From Thermoflexus sp. (GTDB lineage Bacteria > Chloroflexota > Anaerolineae > Aggregatilineales > Aggregatilineaceae), in NCBI GenBank assembly GCA_020724465.1, contig DYGX01000009.1, positions 62,001 through 126,000 on the forward strand: 64,000 nt of DNA, given 5' to 3'. The notes under the pieces are model-generated. The model made no database searches. It was not told the origin of the DNA and saw only the letters and a list, made by a program, of their open reading frames with translations. Positions within the stretch are counted from its first letter, which is position 1; every line of letters begins with the position of its first letter. Below are positions 9,029 through 19,989 of the stretch, piece after piece. The translations under genes and the position numbers were made by a program.

Positions 9029-9099
9029 TTCGCATATGGGGCACATCATTCATAGTGATCACCCCTAATTAGTTTTTGGGGCAATCAAGGGGGTGCTTG

Positions 9100-11013
9100 A
9101 TGACACTGATTCCACCAGGTGGCACGCGCCGGCGCCCAACCGAACAGGAAGCTATCTCGCTCGAACTGGTGAGCGGTCTGTTGATGCTCATAGGGTTTTT
9201 CGCGTTTGCTTACCTGTTCTACGCAATCGCCACCAACGCCGATATCAAGGAAGCCACACAGGGGCCTGAGGTTCCCGGGATTGGTCTGAACGTGACCCTG
9301 GTAGAGCCGGACGAGCCAGAGCCACCCTACTTTGAACTGCATCCTATCGCGGGGGGCACAGCCAGCACTACAGGCATCCGGGCGGGCGACCGGCTCGCCA
9401 AGATCGACGGCGAGGACGCCACACCCGAGACAATGACATTGGAGCAGGTGCGCGCGCGCCTCGCCGAAGCGGACGTTTCGCTGGCCGATGACGACTTCGA
9501 AATCACGCTGGAATTTCTGCGGCCATTGCCCGACGGCAGCCTGAGGGCGGAAACCCGCGTCGTGCCGAAGAACGTCCCGCCGACGACAACCATCGCCTAC
9601 CTCAAGAGCTTTGGGTTTGTCGTGCCATTGCTGCTCGTTCTGCTCGGCATCTTCCTGATCCGGCTTGGCACGCGGCTGCGCCAGTACGATGTGGTCGCGG
9701 CTCGCTGGGCGCTGGTCGCGCTGCTCTGGCTGATGATCGGGCTGGCTGTGGTAGCGCTGTGGTCCTTTTGGGTGAGCGGGAAGGGCGGCCTAGTTACCAA
9801 AGAGCCGTTCAACTATGGCAAAGCAGTGCGTGGCGCCGTGCCTGTTCTGATCGCCATTATCCCGCTGGCGATCGCGTACAAGTGGCTCGGAACGGTGATC
9901 GACGAACTGCTCGTCGGCGAGGAGTCACTCACCTCGCGCAACACGCGGTTCGCGTGGACGCTGCTGGTGCCGACTCTGGTCGTGCTGGCATTGGTCGCGG
10001 CGCGGCCCCTGGAGCAGACGTTCATCAAGAGCCTGACAGACGACCAGTTCGGCACCAACCGGCCAGCGCGCTTCGTCGGCCTGAGAAACTACGCCAACCT
10101 GATCAGCTTCAAGTTCGCGCTCATCGAGTGCCGCCTCGACGACAGCGGCGAGTGCGCGCGCACGCCGAACCAAAGCATCATCTGGGAACGATCGAAAGCC
10201 GAAGAAGAGGAAGCGGAGAAGCTGAGAAGCCTCACCAGTGCCGAGCGACGCAGATACGTGCGCTATCAGGAAGCGGCGACCTGGCGTCTGCCGAACAGCA
10301 CTAAAGGCATCCGCCTGCTGGGCAAAGACCCCACGTTTCTCAAGTCCGTGGGCAACACGCTTCGCTTTACCGTTTCCTCGGTCACTCTGGAGCTGGTGCT
10401 GGGGCTGCTCATCGCGCTGGTCGTTAACTCCGGTTTCCGCGGGCGCGGCCTGATGCGGGCGGCGATGCTGGTCCCCTGGGCGATCCCGACAGTCGTCTCA
10501 GCCGTGCTGTGGCAGGCGATGATGCGCCCGGACCAGACCGGCATCCTCAACAAGCTGCTGCTCGACCTGGGGCTGATCGCCGGCCCCAAGCAGTGGCTGG
10601 CGGCGACCGGCCCCTGGATGAACTCCATTGTGGCGATCGATGTCTGGAAGACGACGCCGTTTATGGCGTTGCTGCTGCTGGCCGGTCTGCAGGTGATCCC
10701 TAGCGACCTGTACGAAGCGGCGGCTGTCGATGGCGCGTCCAAGCTGCGGCAGTTTTTCTCGATCACCCTTCCTCTGCTGCGCCCCACCATCGCTGTCGCG
10801 CTGATCTTCCGCACGCTGGACGCGCTGCGCGCGTTCGATGTGTTCCAGGTGCTGCTCGATACAACGCGCCCGTCGATGGCTGCCTACAACTACAACACGC
10901 TGGTGCTGAACCGGATGGACGGGTACGCATCCACGGTTGGGGTGATGATCTTCATCCTGATCTTCATCTTCACGGTGCTGTACGTTCGATTTGTGAGGAT
11001 TGAACAAGAATGA
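9100..11013 (+). CDS. MalF-type sugar permease with extra N-terminal membrane and PDZ-like region
   Basis: A 637-residue protein, about twice the usual MalF/UgpA size. The C-terminal part (from about residue 285) is an ordinary permease: first helix WTLLVPTLVVLALVAARPLEQTF, then FVGLRNYANLI, a ~100-residue outside loop with a charged helix, and the EAA loop YEAAAVDGASKLRQFFSITLPLL near residue 538. The first 285 residues are unusual: a helix at about 23-43, a soluble PDZ-like stretch at about 76-157 containing GGTASTTGIRAGDRLAKIDGED (GxRxGDxxxxIDG signature), and three more helices at about 173-188, 203-225 and 246-265. ATG 9100 is preceded by AAGGGGG at good spacing. It overlaps the next permease by 4 bp. 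The PDZ assignment is from motif only. Confidence 0.85.
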   Translation: MTLIPPGGTRRRPTEQEAISLELVSGLLMLIGFFAFAYLFYAIATNADIKEATQGPEVPGIGLNVTLVEPDEPEPPYFELHPIAGGTASTTGIRAGDRLAKIDGEDATPETMTLEQVRARLAEADVSLADDDFEITLEFLRPLPDGSLRAETRVVPKNVPPTTTIAYLKSFGFVVPLLLVLLGIFLIRLGTRLRQYDVVAARWALVALLWLMIGLAVVALWSFWVSGKGGLVTKEPFNYGKAVRGAVPVLIAIIPLAIAYKWLGTVIDELLVGEESLTSRNTRFAWTLLVPTLVVLALVAARPLEQTFIKSLTDDQFGTNRPARFVGLRNYANLISFKFALIECRLDDSGECARTPNQSIIWERSKAEEEEAEKLRSLTSAERRRYVRYQEAATWRLPNSTKGIRLLGKDPTFLKSVGNTLRFTVSSVTLELVLGLLIALVVNSGFRGRGLMRAAMLVPWAIPTVVSAVLWQAMMRPDQTGILNKLLLDLGLIAGPKQWLAATGPWMNSIVAIDVWKTTPFMALLLLAGLQVIPSDLYEAAAVDGASKLRQFFSITLPLLRPTIAVALIFRTLDALRAFDVFQVLLDTTRPSMAAYNYNTLVLNRMDGYASTVGVMIFILIFIFTVLYVRFVRIEQE

Positions 11014-13429: not shown

Positions 13430-14398
13430 CTACTGCTCGACGGCTGTGTACTGCTCGCCGTCCCACTCGAAGAGCACTTCGGGGGTGCGGCCGCAGTGCA
13501 ACGGAGAGCCTTCTTCGCCACCGTTGCTCGGGACGAAGACGCTCCCATCCTCGCGGATCTCCCAGTCCAGCGCCTGACCGGGATAGCACCAGTCGTCGAA
13601 CGCGACGCGCAGCTCGACCGACGGGAAGCGCCCTTCCCAGGACAGGATGTTGAGTTCTTTAGCATCGCCGGTGCCGGTCGGCGCATAGAGGGTGATGGCG
13701 GTCAGCGGGCCGGCATCCCCCTCAACCTCGATCACCTCGACCTCAGGCGCGGGCAGATAGACCAACGCCTGATGCGCTTCCTCGACGCTCAGCGTGCTGT
13801 CTTCCAGCATGGCAAACGACACATGATCGCCGCTCTCGTCGGTCACAAACGCAGACACCGGCGCGATGACCTGGCCCTGCCAGCCGTCTTCTCCGTAGAA
13901 GAACGCGATGCTCAGGCCGCCCCGAAGCTGATAGACGGTCCGATCCGAGAAATACGGCACCTGCGTGTGCAGGATCAGCTCGTCCGCCCCGTCCCCGTTC
14001 AGGTCCATGAAGGCGACCTGCGGCACAAAATCGGTGCTGAGCGGCACGGAGCCGAAGTCGCCGCCGACCTCGACACTCGACACCGGCGGCTCGATCAGGC
14101 TTAGCGCGGCCAACCGCTCGACGACGTCCGCCTGCTCAGCAAGCGGCAGGTCCGGATCGGTGCAGTTGTTGAGGTAGAACTCGCTTGAGCCGACCACACG
14201 CCGCACGATATTCTCCCAATCTGTGCTGTCCCACTCAATCACGCCGGCCTCGATCTCGCTCAGCGCGCGCTCGAAGACACCGGCCGTGAAGTCCCGCGCG
14301 TCGTCGAACGCGGTCGCACAACCGTCCTCTTGCGCGCTGGCAGCCGGAACCATCATCAGGCTCGTCAGGATGGCAAGACGCCAAACGAATCGCCTCAT
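13430..14398 (-). CDS. Secreted hypothetical protein with FG-GAP-like stretch
   Basis: A 322-residue protein with an N-terminal signal peptide (MRRFVWRLAILTSLMMVPAASAQ). The start at 14398 is preferred over a longer frame because AGGAAC precedes it and the signal begins there. The segment VAFMDLNGDGADELILHTQ is an EF-hand-like/FG-GAP calcium-loop pattern often seen in surface proteins. Six or so cysteines suggest disulfides. It lies alone between two terminator-like hairpins. Function is unknown; binding or sensing outside the cell is the most that can be said. Confidence 0.7.
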   Translation of the reverse strand: MRRFVWRLAILTSLMMVPAASAQEDGCATAFDDARDFTAGVFERALSEIEAGVIEWDSTDWENIVRRVVGSSEFYLNNCTDPDLPLAEQADVVERLAALSLIEPPVSSVEVGGDFGSVPLSTDFVPQVAFMDLNGDGADELILHTQVPYFSDRTVYQLRGGLSIAFFYGEDGWQGQVIAPVSAFVTDESGDHVSFAMLEDSTLSVEEAHQALVYLPAPEVEVIEVEGDAGPLTAITLYAPTGTGDAKELNILSWEGRFPSVELRVAFDDWCYPGQALDWEIREDGSVFVPSNGGEEGSPLHCGRTPEVLFEWDGEQYTAVEQ

Positions 14399-14582
14399 AT
14401 CCCGTTCCTCCCTGAGTTCACCGCACAGGCGATTTCGACACATCAACCAAAGGCAGGGCGACGCGTCCGCTCGCCTCTGCCTCTCTTCCCAGATTACTCG
14501 TGCCTTGCCAGAAAGCATCAGACTAAAGACGGATTTTTTCGATCCCGACACACCGGGCGCTACAGCCGGATCCCAAACAGCG

Positions 14583-14646: not shown

Positions 14647-16224
14647 TTACTTTTCCACCCCGGTCAGGATCACGCCACGCATGAACACACGCTGCGCCAG
14701 GAAGAACAGCACCACCGGGATCACCAGGCCCATCAGCGCGGTCGCCTGGATCAGGTGCGGCTGCTGGTCGAAGACGAAGTTGAAGATCTGGATGCCCACC
14801 GACAAGGGGGCGATCTTCGGATTGCTCAAGGTGTAGATCAGGGGTTCAAAGTAGTCGTTCCAGGCAAAGACGAAGTGGAACAGACTCACCGCGACGATCG
14901 CCGGCCACGCCTGCGGGATGATCACCGAGCGCAGGATGCGGAACGGCCCTGCGCCGTCAATCATCGCCGCCTCGTCCAGCTCGATCGGCAGCGTGCTGAA
15001 ATACTGGCGCAAGAGCAGGACGTTGTAGGCGTTCGCGAAGAAGTGCGGCACGATCAGCGGCAGCCAAGTTCCCGTCCAGCCCAGCACCTGCGAAAACACG
15101 AAGTAGGTGGGGACCAGGGTCACCTGCTTGGGCAGGATGATAGTCGAGATCAGGATCATGAACAGCACGTTCTTGTACGGGATCGGGAAGCGCGTAAACG
15201 CATAGGCGACCAGCGTGCAGGAAATGACCGTGCCGATCATGCCCAGAATCGCGATCATCAGCGTGTTGAAGAGCAGCCGCGGGAAGCCCACTTCGCGCCA
15301 GGCATAGGAGAAGTTCTCCCACTGCGGATCAAACCGCTTCACCGGCTTGGCGGTGGGCTGTTGCTGATTGGCAAACGGCTGCTCGGACCAGGCCAGAATA
15401 CCCGCATCCAGATTCTCCGGGTCGATAAAGTAGGTTTCCGTCTGGCCGGGCACGCCCTGCCGCACCATCGCCCAGCGCTGCGTTCCGCCATCCGGCGCGG
15501 GCACCTCATAGAGCGGATATTCCGCGCCGGGCTGCAGAACCACCTCGGGAATTGTCTTGCCCCGGTAGGTATAGAGCACTTCTTTTTCAAGCGCCGTCGC
15601 CTCGGCGAGATCGCCCTGCCAGGTCACAATCCCGGACTCGGGGGCGGCGGGGTCGAGGAAGTAATGCGTGTCCCCTTCAGACTTGAACAGCGCCAGCCGT
15701 TTCACGCCCCCGTCAAGCGGGATGTCATACAGCGGGTACGGTGTGCCGCGCACCACCCCTTCTTCCCGGTAGCCCGTTCCCACATACATGAATGTCTCCG
15801 GCTCGGTCAGCGGCTCGATGGTCGCCGGGTCGCCCGTCCACTCGATGACGCCTCCGGCCACGTTCGCCGGATCCAGAAAGACGACCATATCATCCAGGGT
15901 GGCGATCAGCGCCCATTCCCGCCAGATGCCCTGCTCGTCCGGAACGCGGTAAAGCGGGTAGCGGCTCCCAGTACGCACGCTCCACTCGGGATATTCCTCG
16001 CCATCATAGCGGTACATCACCGGCGACATCGGCAAGATGCTCTTCTCGGTGATCTGGGGCTTGTTCTTGATAGCGGTCGTCGCCATGTACCCGAATGGGG
16101 ACAGATAGGCGATCAGGAGCATAATCGTAAACATCAGCAGGAGCGCGCTGAGGCCAAGATTCCGGTAGCGGGCGACGATCTGCTTGCTGCCCCAGAGTTT
16201 GCGTTTGTGCGTGGAATCAGCCAT
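14647..16224 (-). CDS. MalG-type sugar permease with a threefold-repeated extracytoplasmic insertion
   Basis: A 525-residue permease against about 280 for normal MalG. Helix 1 (about 25-45) and the rest of the channel (from about 315; EAA loop ELDEAAMIDGAGPFRILRSVIIP) are conventional. Between them lies about 240 extra residues containing three related units, at about 71-129, 147-202 and 218-279. Each carries YPLYxVP, then a hydrophobic strand, a (F/Y)(L/I)DP turn and ends G(V/I)xxW. In MalG topology this is the first loop on the outer face, so the insertion should face the binding protein. It lies 5 bp after the partner permease gene. Confidence 0.9.
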   Translation of the reverse strand: MADSTHKRKLWGSKQIVARYRNLGLSALLLMFTIMLLIAYLSPFGYMATTAIKNKPQITEKSILPMSPVMYRYDGEEYPEWSVRTGSRYPLYRVPDEQGIWREWALIATLDDMVVFLDPANVAGGVIEWTGDPATIEPLTEPETFMYVGTGYREEGVVRGTPYPLYDIPLDGGVKRLALFKSEGDTHYFLDPAAPESGIVTWQGDLAEATALEKEVLYTYRGKTIPEVVLQPGAEYPLYEVPAPDGGTQRWAMVRQGVPGQTETYFIDPENLDAGILAWSEQPFANQQQPTAKPVKRFDPQWENFSYAWREVGFPRLLFNTLMIAILGMIGTVISCTLVAYAFTRFPIPYKNVLFMILISTIILPKQVTLVPTYFVFSQVLGWTGTWLPLIVPHFFANAYNVLLLRQYFSTLPIELDEAAMIDGAGPFRILRSVIIPQAWPAIVAVSLFHFVFAWNDYFEPLIYTLSNPKIAPLSVGIQIFNFVFDQQPHLIQATALMGLVIPVVLFFLAQRVFMRGVILTGVEK

Positions 16225-17304: not shown

Positions 17305-18681
17305 TTAGGACTGCGCCGCGTCGAAGATCCCCTGCAAGGTTTGCAGCAGGGTTTCAATCTCCGCGTCGACATCGAGGCCCGGCGTGGCCTGCATGTGCAG
17401 CGACCAGTTCTGGATCGCGACCACGGACTGGGTGTGGTTAGGCAGCCAGCTCTCGTGGTTCGGGTTATCCGGATACTGCAGGCTCTCGATAGCCACATCC
17501 CAGTTTACACCCTGCGGGAACCGGGCGTCCAGTTCGTCGAGGAACGGCTGGAGATAGACTTTATCGGCAGGTGCCGCGCCGTAGACCTGCAGCAGTTCCG
17601 GCATGGCCGGGCCGGCCACCAGGTAGTCCAGCACCTTAAACGCCTCGATCGGGTGCTCGGTGTATTCGAGGATGCGGAAGGTGTCCGCGTGCAGCTTGGC
17701 GGTGTACGTGCCCTCGTAGGACGGAACCACCGCGATATCCCAGTTCGGAACATCGCCTACGCAGCAGGTGTACCACAGGTGGCTGTAAGCCATCGCCACA
17801 CGGCCGGAGTTAAACACGTTTCCGTTCAGCAGCATGTCGCTCTGCTGATAGTCATAGTTCGGCATAAAGTGGTCCTCGTGCCAACCGGCGTAGATCCACT
17901 TGATGCCTTCGCGCCAGTTGTCCGGCATCACGGCCTGGCCAGTCTCTGGATCGTAGAACGACCCGGCGCCGAACGGCGACGTCACCGCGGAGCGAATGTC
18001 ATCGCCCCACCACTGCGGCGCATAGCCGAACTGCACGATCTTGGTCGGGTCGAACTCGGGGCTGGTGGCGTTGTTGCCGTTCTCGTCCAGCGTCAGCAGC
18101 ATGGCGATCTCGCGCAGCTTGTCGACGTTCCACTCATCCCCGTCGGCATACGGCTCGCCGAATGCCTGGGGCGGATAGGCGACGCCAGCCGCGTCGAACA
18201 GATCGCGGTTGAAGTAGATGAACGACGGATAGGTGGCGAACGGCAGGGCGGTCAGGCCCTCCTCCGGATCGCGATAGAACTCGATCAGGCTCGGATTCCA
18301 GCGGCTCAGGTCATAGTCCAGCTCATCAATGATGGGCTGCAGATCGAGGAAGGTGCCGGCGTAGTCATTCGAGCCGCCGATCCCCACCGGGCCGATGATG
18401 TCCGGCGCGTCGCCCGACGCGATGAGCGTGCTGAGCGTCTGGCGGCTGACGTCAAAGTCGGACACGATGATCTCCAACTCAATGTCGTCGTGCTCGGCGT
18501 TGAACTGCTCGACGACCCGGTCCTGGGCTTCCCGATGCTCAGGCTGCCCACCGGCACCCAGGCCGATGAACCAGGTGATGACCACCGGCTCACCCCCCTG
18601 CGCCTGCACAGGGGCCAGCGGAACGACCATCACCGACAGCGCGGCGATGAGAACAGTGAAAACGGCTAGTTTACGGAACAT
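17305..18681 (-). CDS. Extracellular sugar-binding protein (ABC importer)
   Basis: A 458-residue solute-binding protein with signal peptide (MFRKLAVFTVLIAALSVMVVPLAPVQAQ). The mature start VVITWFIGLGAG, the segment VVEQFNAEHDDIELEII and SGDAPDIIGPVG match family-1 sugar-binding proteins. A later LTALPFATYPSFIYFNRDLFDAAGV block is the hinge-proximal conserved region. Two adjacent cysteines occur in WYTCCVGDVP. The 18681 start is preferred to a longer frame because the signal begins there and AGGAGATG precedes it. It is second in the minus-strand operon lacI-binding protein-permease-permease. Ligand unknown; the GH67 fragment upstream hints at xylan-derived sugars. Confidence 0.9.
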   Translation of the reverse strand: MFRKLAVFTVLIAALSVMVVPLAPVQAQGGEPVVITWFIGLGAGGQPEHREAQDRVVEQFNAEHDDIELEIIVSDFDVSRQTLSTLIASGDAPDIIGPVGIGGSNDYAGTFLDLQPIIDELDYDLSRWNPSLIEFYRDPEEGLTALPFATYPSFIYFNRDLFDAAGVAYPPQAFGEPYADGDEWNVDKLREIAMLLTLDENGNNATSPEFDPTKIVQFGYAPQWWGDDIRSAVTSPFGAGSFYDPETGQAVMPDNWREGIKWIYAGWHEDHFMPNYDYQQSDMLLNGNVFNSGRVAMAYSHLWYTCCVGDVPNWDIAVVPSYEGTYTAKLHADTFRILEYTEHPIEAFKVLDYLVAGPAMPELLQVYGAAPADKVYLQPFLDELDARFPQGVNWDVAIESLQYPDNPNHESWLPNHTQSVVAIQNWSLHMQATPGLDVDAEIETLLQTLQGIFDAAQS

Positions 18682-18891: not shown

Positions 18892-19989
18892 TCATGAGCG
18901 TTGATCGGAAAATGACCCTTCCACTGGCTGCTGGCGCGGCGAGCCGCCCGGCCCCGATTCGAGAATCCCGCCGCAGGTCGAGCGAATCACCAGCTCCGTC
19001 GTCAAGATCAGATGGCGCGGCGGGTGCGGCCCCATCTCCAGCAGCTCAAGCAGGACCTCAACCGCTAGCATGCCGTTGCGCCGGACCGGCTGGCGGATGG
19101 TCGTCAGCGGCGGGTCGAAGCGCATCGCCGGCGGCAGGTCGTCGAAGCCGATGATCGCCACATCGTCCGGGACGCGCAGGCCGGCCTCGCGGATGGCACG
19201 GATGGCGCCAAACGCCATGGTGTCGGACGCGGCAAAGACCGCATCGGGGCGGTGAAGCAGAAGCTGGCGCATCGCGGCATAACCGCTGTCCAGGCTGAAA
19301 TCGCCCTCGACGATCAGGTTCTCGTCCACCTTGCGCCCGCGCTCTTGCAACGCCTTGATATAGCCCGCGCGCCGATCGATGCCGGCAGTAGAGTCCATCG
19401 GGCCGGTGATAGTCGCGACCCGCTCGTAGCCCAGGCGGATCAGGTGGCTGGTCGCCACATAGGCCCCGGAGACATTATCGACATCGACATAGCTGGTCTG
19501 GCTGGAATCGGGCGGGCGGCCCACATACACGGCGGGGATCTGGCGGGCGATCAGCTCGGGGATTAGCGGGTCGACCAGTTTGTCGGCGGTGACGATCACG
19601 CCGTCAAGCAGCCCCGTCCCCAGCGCGCGCCGGTAGAGACGCTCCTGGTCGTCTTGCGAGTTGAACAGAAACAGCGTCAGCGTGAGGTCGTGCAGATTGC
19701 AGGCGCGCGAGATACCCTCGATCAGAATCGGGTAGTAGGGGTCGGCGAAGACGAATTCGGTCACACTGGGGATGATCAGGCCGATGATGCCGGAACGGCG
19801 CGACGCCAGCGAGCGAGCCGCCAGGTTGGGCTGGTAGCCCGTGTCGGCGATCACTTTTTCCACCCGCGCACGGTATTCGGGGGAGACACTGGCGGGATTG
19901 TTCACCACGCGGGAGACTGTCGCACGCGACACGCCGGCGAGGCGGGCGACCTGCTCGAGTGTAAGTTTCTTTCCGGGGCTGTTGGCCAT
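18892..19989 (-). CDS. LacI-family transcriptional regulator
   Basis: A 365-residue regulator. The N-terminal helix-turn-helix and hinge are textbook (LTLEQVARLAGVSRATVSRVVNN, then SPEYRARVEKVIADTGYQPNLAARSLA). The rest is a periplasmic-binding-protein-like effector domain (about 65-345). It is first in the operon with a sugar importer 210 bp downstream, so it most likely controls its own operon. Two palindromic operators lie directly upstream (20003-20012 and 20086-20097). The effector is presumably the imported sugar or a derivative. Confidence 0.93.
   Translation of the reverse strand: MANSPGKKLTLEQVARLAGVSRATVSRVVNNPASVSPEYRARVEKVIADTGYQPNLAARSLASRRSGIIGLIIPSVTEFVFADPYYPILIEGISRACNLHDLTLTLFLFNSQDDQERLYRRALGTGLLDGVIVTADKLVDPLIPELIARQIPAVYVGRPPDSSQTSYVDVDNVSGAYVATSHLIRLGYERVATITGPMDSTAGIDRRAGYIKALQERGRKVDENLIVEGDFSLDSGYAAMRQLLLHRPDAVFAASDTMAFGAIRAIREAGLRVPDDVAIIGFDDLPPAMRFDPPLTTIRQPVRRNGMLAVEVLLELLEMGPHPPRHLILTTELVIRSTCGGILESGPGGSPRQQPVEGSFSDQRS

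Follow-up and report, generated by a model that had tools for sequence, protein, structure and literature searches.

A gene for a MalG-type permease of 525 aa raises the question of what fills the unusually long stretch between its first two transmembrane segments, and what that stretch might do for the sugar importer to which it belongs. The gene is in the window, the whole stretch of 64,000 nucleotides that we analysed, in the operon of a CUT1 sugar importer, which comprises genes for a LacI regulator, a binding protein, MalF, and MalG. We found that the first outside loop of this MalG carries a tandem triplication of a module of about 60-70 residues that is mostly single in its relatives. 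The features of the operon and of the permease are listed in Table 1.

Table 1. Features of the importer operon and of the 525-aa permease, in window coordinates.
Feature	Position	Strand	Basis
MalG-type (CUT1) permease, 525 aa	14647..16224	-	PF00528; NCBIfam models below cut-offs; SugB/MalG in PDB
BPD_transp_1 core with EAA motif (residues 345-511)	14692..15192	-	PF00528
Outside first-loop insert (residues 58-300)	15325..16053	-	Hydropathy; charge; start of solved MalG/SugB alignment at ~303
Unit 3 (residues 216-283), adjoins TM2	15376..15579	-	Repeat statistics; unit profile, 61 bits; dN/dS 0.09
Unit 2 (residues 143-215)	15580..15798	-	Repeat statistics; unit profile, 63 bits
Unit 1 (residues 69-142)	15799..16020	-	Repeat statistics; unit profile, 64 bits
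TM1 (residues about 23-52)	16069..16158	-	Hydropathy
Partner MalF/UgpA/GlcT-type permease, 320 aa, without large loop	16230..17192	-	PF00528, E 7.9e-17; full-length UgpA match without large insert
Sugar-binding protein, N-terminal WFxGLGxG, signal peptide without lipobox	17305..18681	-	SBP_bac_1, E 7e-18; lipobox scan; motif/family association
LacI-family regulator, likely of the operon	18892..19989	-	PF00356, E 7.8e-18

The permease and its repeated loop

The protein is a MalG-type sugar permease, as an earlier note made from the sequence had proposed. PF00528 (BPD_transp_1) matched residues 345-511 (E 3e-13, 50 bits; cut-off 26.4), and the best solved relative in a search of the PDB was SugB (query residues 303-517 on chain residues 55-270). 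The operon also contains genes for a binding protein and MalF, as is characteristic of CUT1 MalG-type permeases. The UgpE, GlcU, and MalG models of NCBIfam matched below their cut-offs. The maltose-specific MalG family (NF008231) scored 64.6 bits versus an NCBI equivalog cut-off of 261, and the permease was not assigned to it.

The permease is over-long because of a stretch of approximately 240 residues between TM1 and TM2. By hydropathy, TM1 is at about residues 23-41 (given as about 23-52 in Table 1) and the next transmembrane segment at about 312-340; solved SugB and MalG chains align to the protein only from about residue 303 on. The first-loop gap was 255 residues, compared to mostly ~15-36 residues, by the same measure, in the other MalGs of the same genome. 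The N terminus is positively charged (K+R 6, D+E 1) and the insert is acidic (K+R 19, D+E 38); the EAA motif, which is cytoplasmic, begins at residue 417. These features indicate that the insert is in the first outside loop, on the side of the binding protein, where the earlier note had placed it, and not in the cytoplasm.

The insert contains three related units. The units are 35-36% identical in pairwise comparisons, with local alignment scores of 96-117 compared to means of ~25 for shuffled sequences (z of 15-19; 0 of 2000 shuffles scored as high). The self-score of the whole insert was 121, compared to 31 ± 5 after shuffling, bearing out the proposed threefold repeat. The motif YPLYxVP, which had been described for every unit, is present in units 1 and 3 (YPLYRVP and YPLYEVP), and unit 2 has an I in place of the V (YPLYDIP). 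The other two proposed motifs, a (F/Y)(L/I)DP turn and a closing GxxxW, are in all three units (FLDP, FLDP, and FIDP; GVIEW, GIVTW, and GILAW). In the six-frame translation of the window there are exactly three occurrences of YP(L/M/V)Yx(V/I)P, all of them in the 525-aa permease. The conserved aromatics of the unit are Y, Y, F, W, and W, and the alternating pattern in YxVYxVP, xELALV, FIDP, and IxW suggests that the module is beta-rich.

The insert is under purifying selection. The same three-unit array is present in two other genomes, G462 (99% identical) and G409 (74% identical), and an assembly artefact is therefore excluded. In the comparison of the window gene with that of G409, dN/dS was 0.17 for the insert, 0.11 for the core, and 0.09-0.24 for the individual units, of which unit 3 was the most constrained.

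Distribution and copy number of the unit

Most proteins with the unit have a single copy and are MalGs of ~350-420 aa. A search with the whole insert detected the unit in 31 of the 400 genomes of a phylum sample. A profile built from 35 units detected it in 114 of the 154 genomes of the window's order and in 40 of the 400 genomes of the Chloroflexota phylum sample, indicating that the unit is not peculiar to the 525-aa permease. A scan of GTDB contigs gave 80 loci, mostly from Anaerolineae and also from Chloroflexus, Acidimicrobiia, and Trueperaceae; a few records from other phyla may be misbinned contigs. A MalG core was present in all of the unit-bearing ORFs recovered from the fetched loci (156 of 156). 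We found no viral contigs with the insert, and a search of plasmids for one loop sequence of the single-unit type (that of L013) was likewise negative. Because relatives in the Chloroflexota commonly carry one copy, the 525-aa permease is a stretched (three-copy) version of a widespread single-unit design.

Another MalG of the window genome (L156) has a separate, diverged single unit. Two fused MalF-MalG proteins of relatives (L065 and L066, with frames of 711 and 757 aa) each have one diverged unit in the first loop of the MalG half.

The subfamily of single-unit Chloroflexota MalGs found here is without a name in the databases that we searched. The window permease belongs to it, with the unit in the first outside loop (three copies at 61-64 bits) and a core in the same clade; it shares the loop, the unit, and the family of the binding protein with the single-unit members and differs in having three units rather than one. 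No Pfam family describes the unit, no PDB chain matched it, and we found no literature on the module within open-access papers. We rejected a kinship with DUF3592 (PF12158), which matched 4 of the 35 units weakly (best E 0.034) and had a profile-profile probability of 12% over 24 columns.

The earlier claim that no described MalG has such a repeat did not hold up as a claim of uniqueness, given that Chloroflexota MalGs commonly contain one copy of the unit and that large inserts in the first loop of MalG have been described in Thermotogales (PMC2246101). MalG1 and MalG2 of Thermotogales have a hydrophilic region of ~500 aa between TM1 and TM2 that was reported in 2008 as having no known function and no similarity to known proteins (PMC2246101). 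These proteins are like the window permease in the large TM1-TM2 region and are set apart by description only, in that no repeat was reported there. Large first-loop domains of MalG were thus already known, and what is new here is that a common, previously undescribed loop module is repeated.

We saw tandem arrays in the window's order only. MalGs with two units are in G428, G451, G460, and G464; those with three are in the window genome, G462, and G409, and in more degenerate form in G434, G466, and G444. The MalG of G422 has about five units (823-aa frame) and that of G431 has six (772-787 aa); counts of weak units in the arrays are approximate. Outside the order, no ORF in the phylum sample had more than one unit (from the match table, with part of the loci fetched). 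When the MalG cores were placed in a tree, the main subfamily with the unit was one clade of 124 with a support of 100, the three-unit group of the window fell among single-unit proteins, and the arrays needed at least two separate changes. The six-unit protein of G431 has the same operon order and the same loop, and its first two units pair with unit 1 of the window permease, its fourth with unit 2, and its last with unit 3. It differs in the number of units and in the GH1 and GH3 glycosidase genes directly downstream.

One explanation for the arrays is that a single unit serves as a structural domain of the loop, with the additional units being a spacer that was enlarged by tandem duplication and has little function of its own. 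Close relatives differ in copy number (1 to 6), several proteins have degenerate N-terminal units, and the size of the binding protein is unchanged, all of which would fit a spacer. However, each of the three window units is constrained, and they have positional orthologues that have been kept in two other genomes and, roughly, in the six-unit protein. We consider this explanation rather improbable.

Binding proteins, substrates, and lipid anchors

Unit-bearing MalGs are found with one family of binding proteins. A binding protein of this family (P0003) was encoded within 6 kb of 87 of the 95 strong unit loci in the order, and several of the misses may be due to contig ends. The motif WFxGLGxG was present in 58 of the 61 binding proteins beside unit-bearing MalGs versus 1 of 26 in the window genome, the sole carrier there being the binding protein of the 525-aa permease operon. 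The unit and the binding protein may be associated simply because both were inherited within one clade of operons. Over 61 operons, the partial correlation of distances between the unit and the binding protein, beyond the core and MalF, was 0.11 (12 of 1000 permutations were as high), which is weak support at best for contact between the two; that between the unit and the MalG core was larger (0.22). The binding protein was about 460 aa with either three or six units. Because it does not grow with the length of the array, extra units need not touch it.

Genes near 62 unit-bearing operons that we scanned included those for GH3 (18), CBM11 (7), GH39 (6), GH16 (3), GH94 (3), cellulase (2), and GH1 (1). 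Based on the neighbouring GH3, GH1, GH16, GH94, CBM11, and cellulase genes, we infer that the substrates of the wider subfamily are beta-gluco-oligosaccharides. The window's own operon is without such a neighbour and has the LacI regulator upstream and a gene for a GH100-like hydrolase downstream. Just downstream of the permease gene is one for a secreted-looking protein of 373 aa without a Pfam match (window positions 13430-14551, minus strand). Elsewhere in the window (9076-11013, plus strand) is a gene for a 645-aa MalF-type permease with a PDZ-like stretch at residues ~73-132, after the first hydrophobic segment (PF17820, E 0.0019, below cut-off).

The units could also be glycan-binding modules that gather oligosaccharides or the ends of polysaccharides near the transporter, with more copies giving more avidity. 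The five conserved aromatics, the beta-glucan enzymes encoded beside many of the unit-bearing operons, and a copy number that varies as it does in tandem binding modules are consistent with such a role. However, the unit matched no carbohydrate-binding family, and many of the conserved aromatics fit a pattern like that of strands and may belong to the core of the fold, and we believe that this role is unlikely.

The unit does not compensate for a missing lipid anchor. The earlier note suggested that the insert might anchor a binding protein without a lipid anchor, and the binding protein of this operon indeed has no lipobox. With a simple detector, 32 of the 62 binding proteins beside unit-bearing MalGs were lipoproteins and 30 were not, and a few Chloroflexus binding proteins that were missed by the detector look lipidated. 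No lipobox was found in any of the ~26 sugar-binding proteins of the window genome (G000 operons L155-L190), whether or not the permease has a loop insert; Lgt and LspA are encoded in this genome. Because lipidated and non-lipidated binding proteins accompany the unit about equally often, and because the unit-less systems of this genome are also without lipoboxes, an anchoring function is not supported, and a tether for the binding protein is very improbable.

A possible docking or capping element

We favour, tentatively and at a little short of an even chance, a function of the module in docking or capping of the operon's binding protein on the MalG side. In E. coli MalFGK2, the P2 domain of MalF reaches the binding protein, and an outside domain of MalG could, by its position, do likewise. 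The module on the first outside loop of MalG would then be a mirror counterpart of the P2 loop of MalF in docking or capping the binding protein, and extra units would extend the docking platform outward. Support for docking comes from the MalG core in every unit-bearing ORF, the single clade, the single family of binding proteins, the purifying selection, and the outside topology. It is possible, but doubtful, that the unit represents an undescribed family of extracytoplasmic modules that is private to the first loops of MalGs and serves in docking or capping of the binding protein, with the reach or affinity of the importer tuned by the number of copies (1 to 6).

The insert is not itself a P2 domain. 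P2 of E. coli MalF is ~180 aa and is between TM3 and TM4 (PMC2246101). Both are large outside loops of a CUT1 permease that face the binding protein, but P2 is on MalF, and the insert lies between TM1 and TM2 of MalG. A Pfam profile search gave no P2-family match in the 525-aa permease.

Models of how type I importers capture their binding proteins are based almost entirely on E. coli MalFGK2, in which the P2 loop is on MalF. If docking or capping by the MalG module is correct, then a widespread clade of importers has a small, uncatalogued module on MalG, and the natural variants with one to six copies would be a test series for loop domains. The unit also supplies a domain model that is missing from Pfam.

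Two other permeases of the window genome have large additional regions. A MalG-type permease with a 727-aa frame (L179; G000:C17:182000-194000, minus strand) has an unrelated first-loop insert of ~358 aa, for which we found no homology with the unit and which has an internal two-fold repeat (self-score of 74, compared to 35 ± 5 for shuffled sequences). A MalF-type ORF with an 873-aa frame (L163; G000:C55:172000-183000) has a soluble stretch ahead of its permease core, together with many additional hydrophobic segments.
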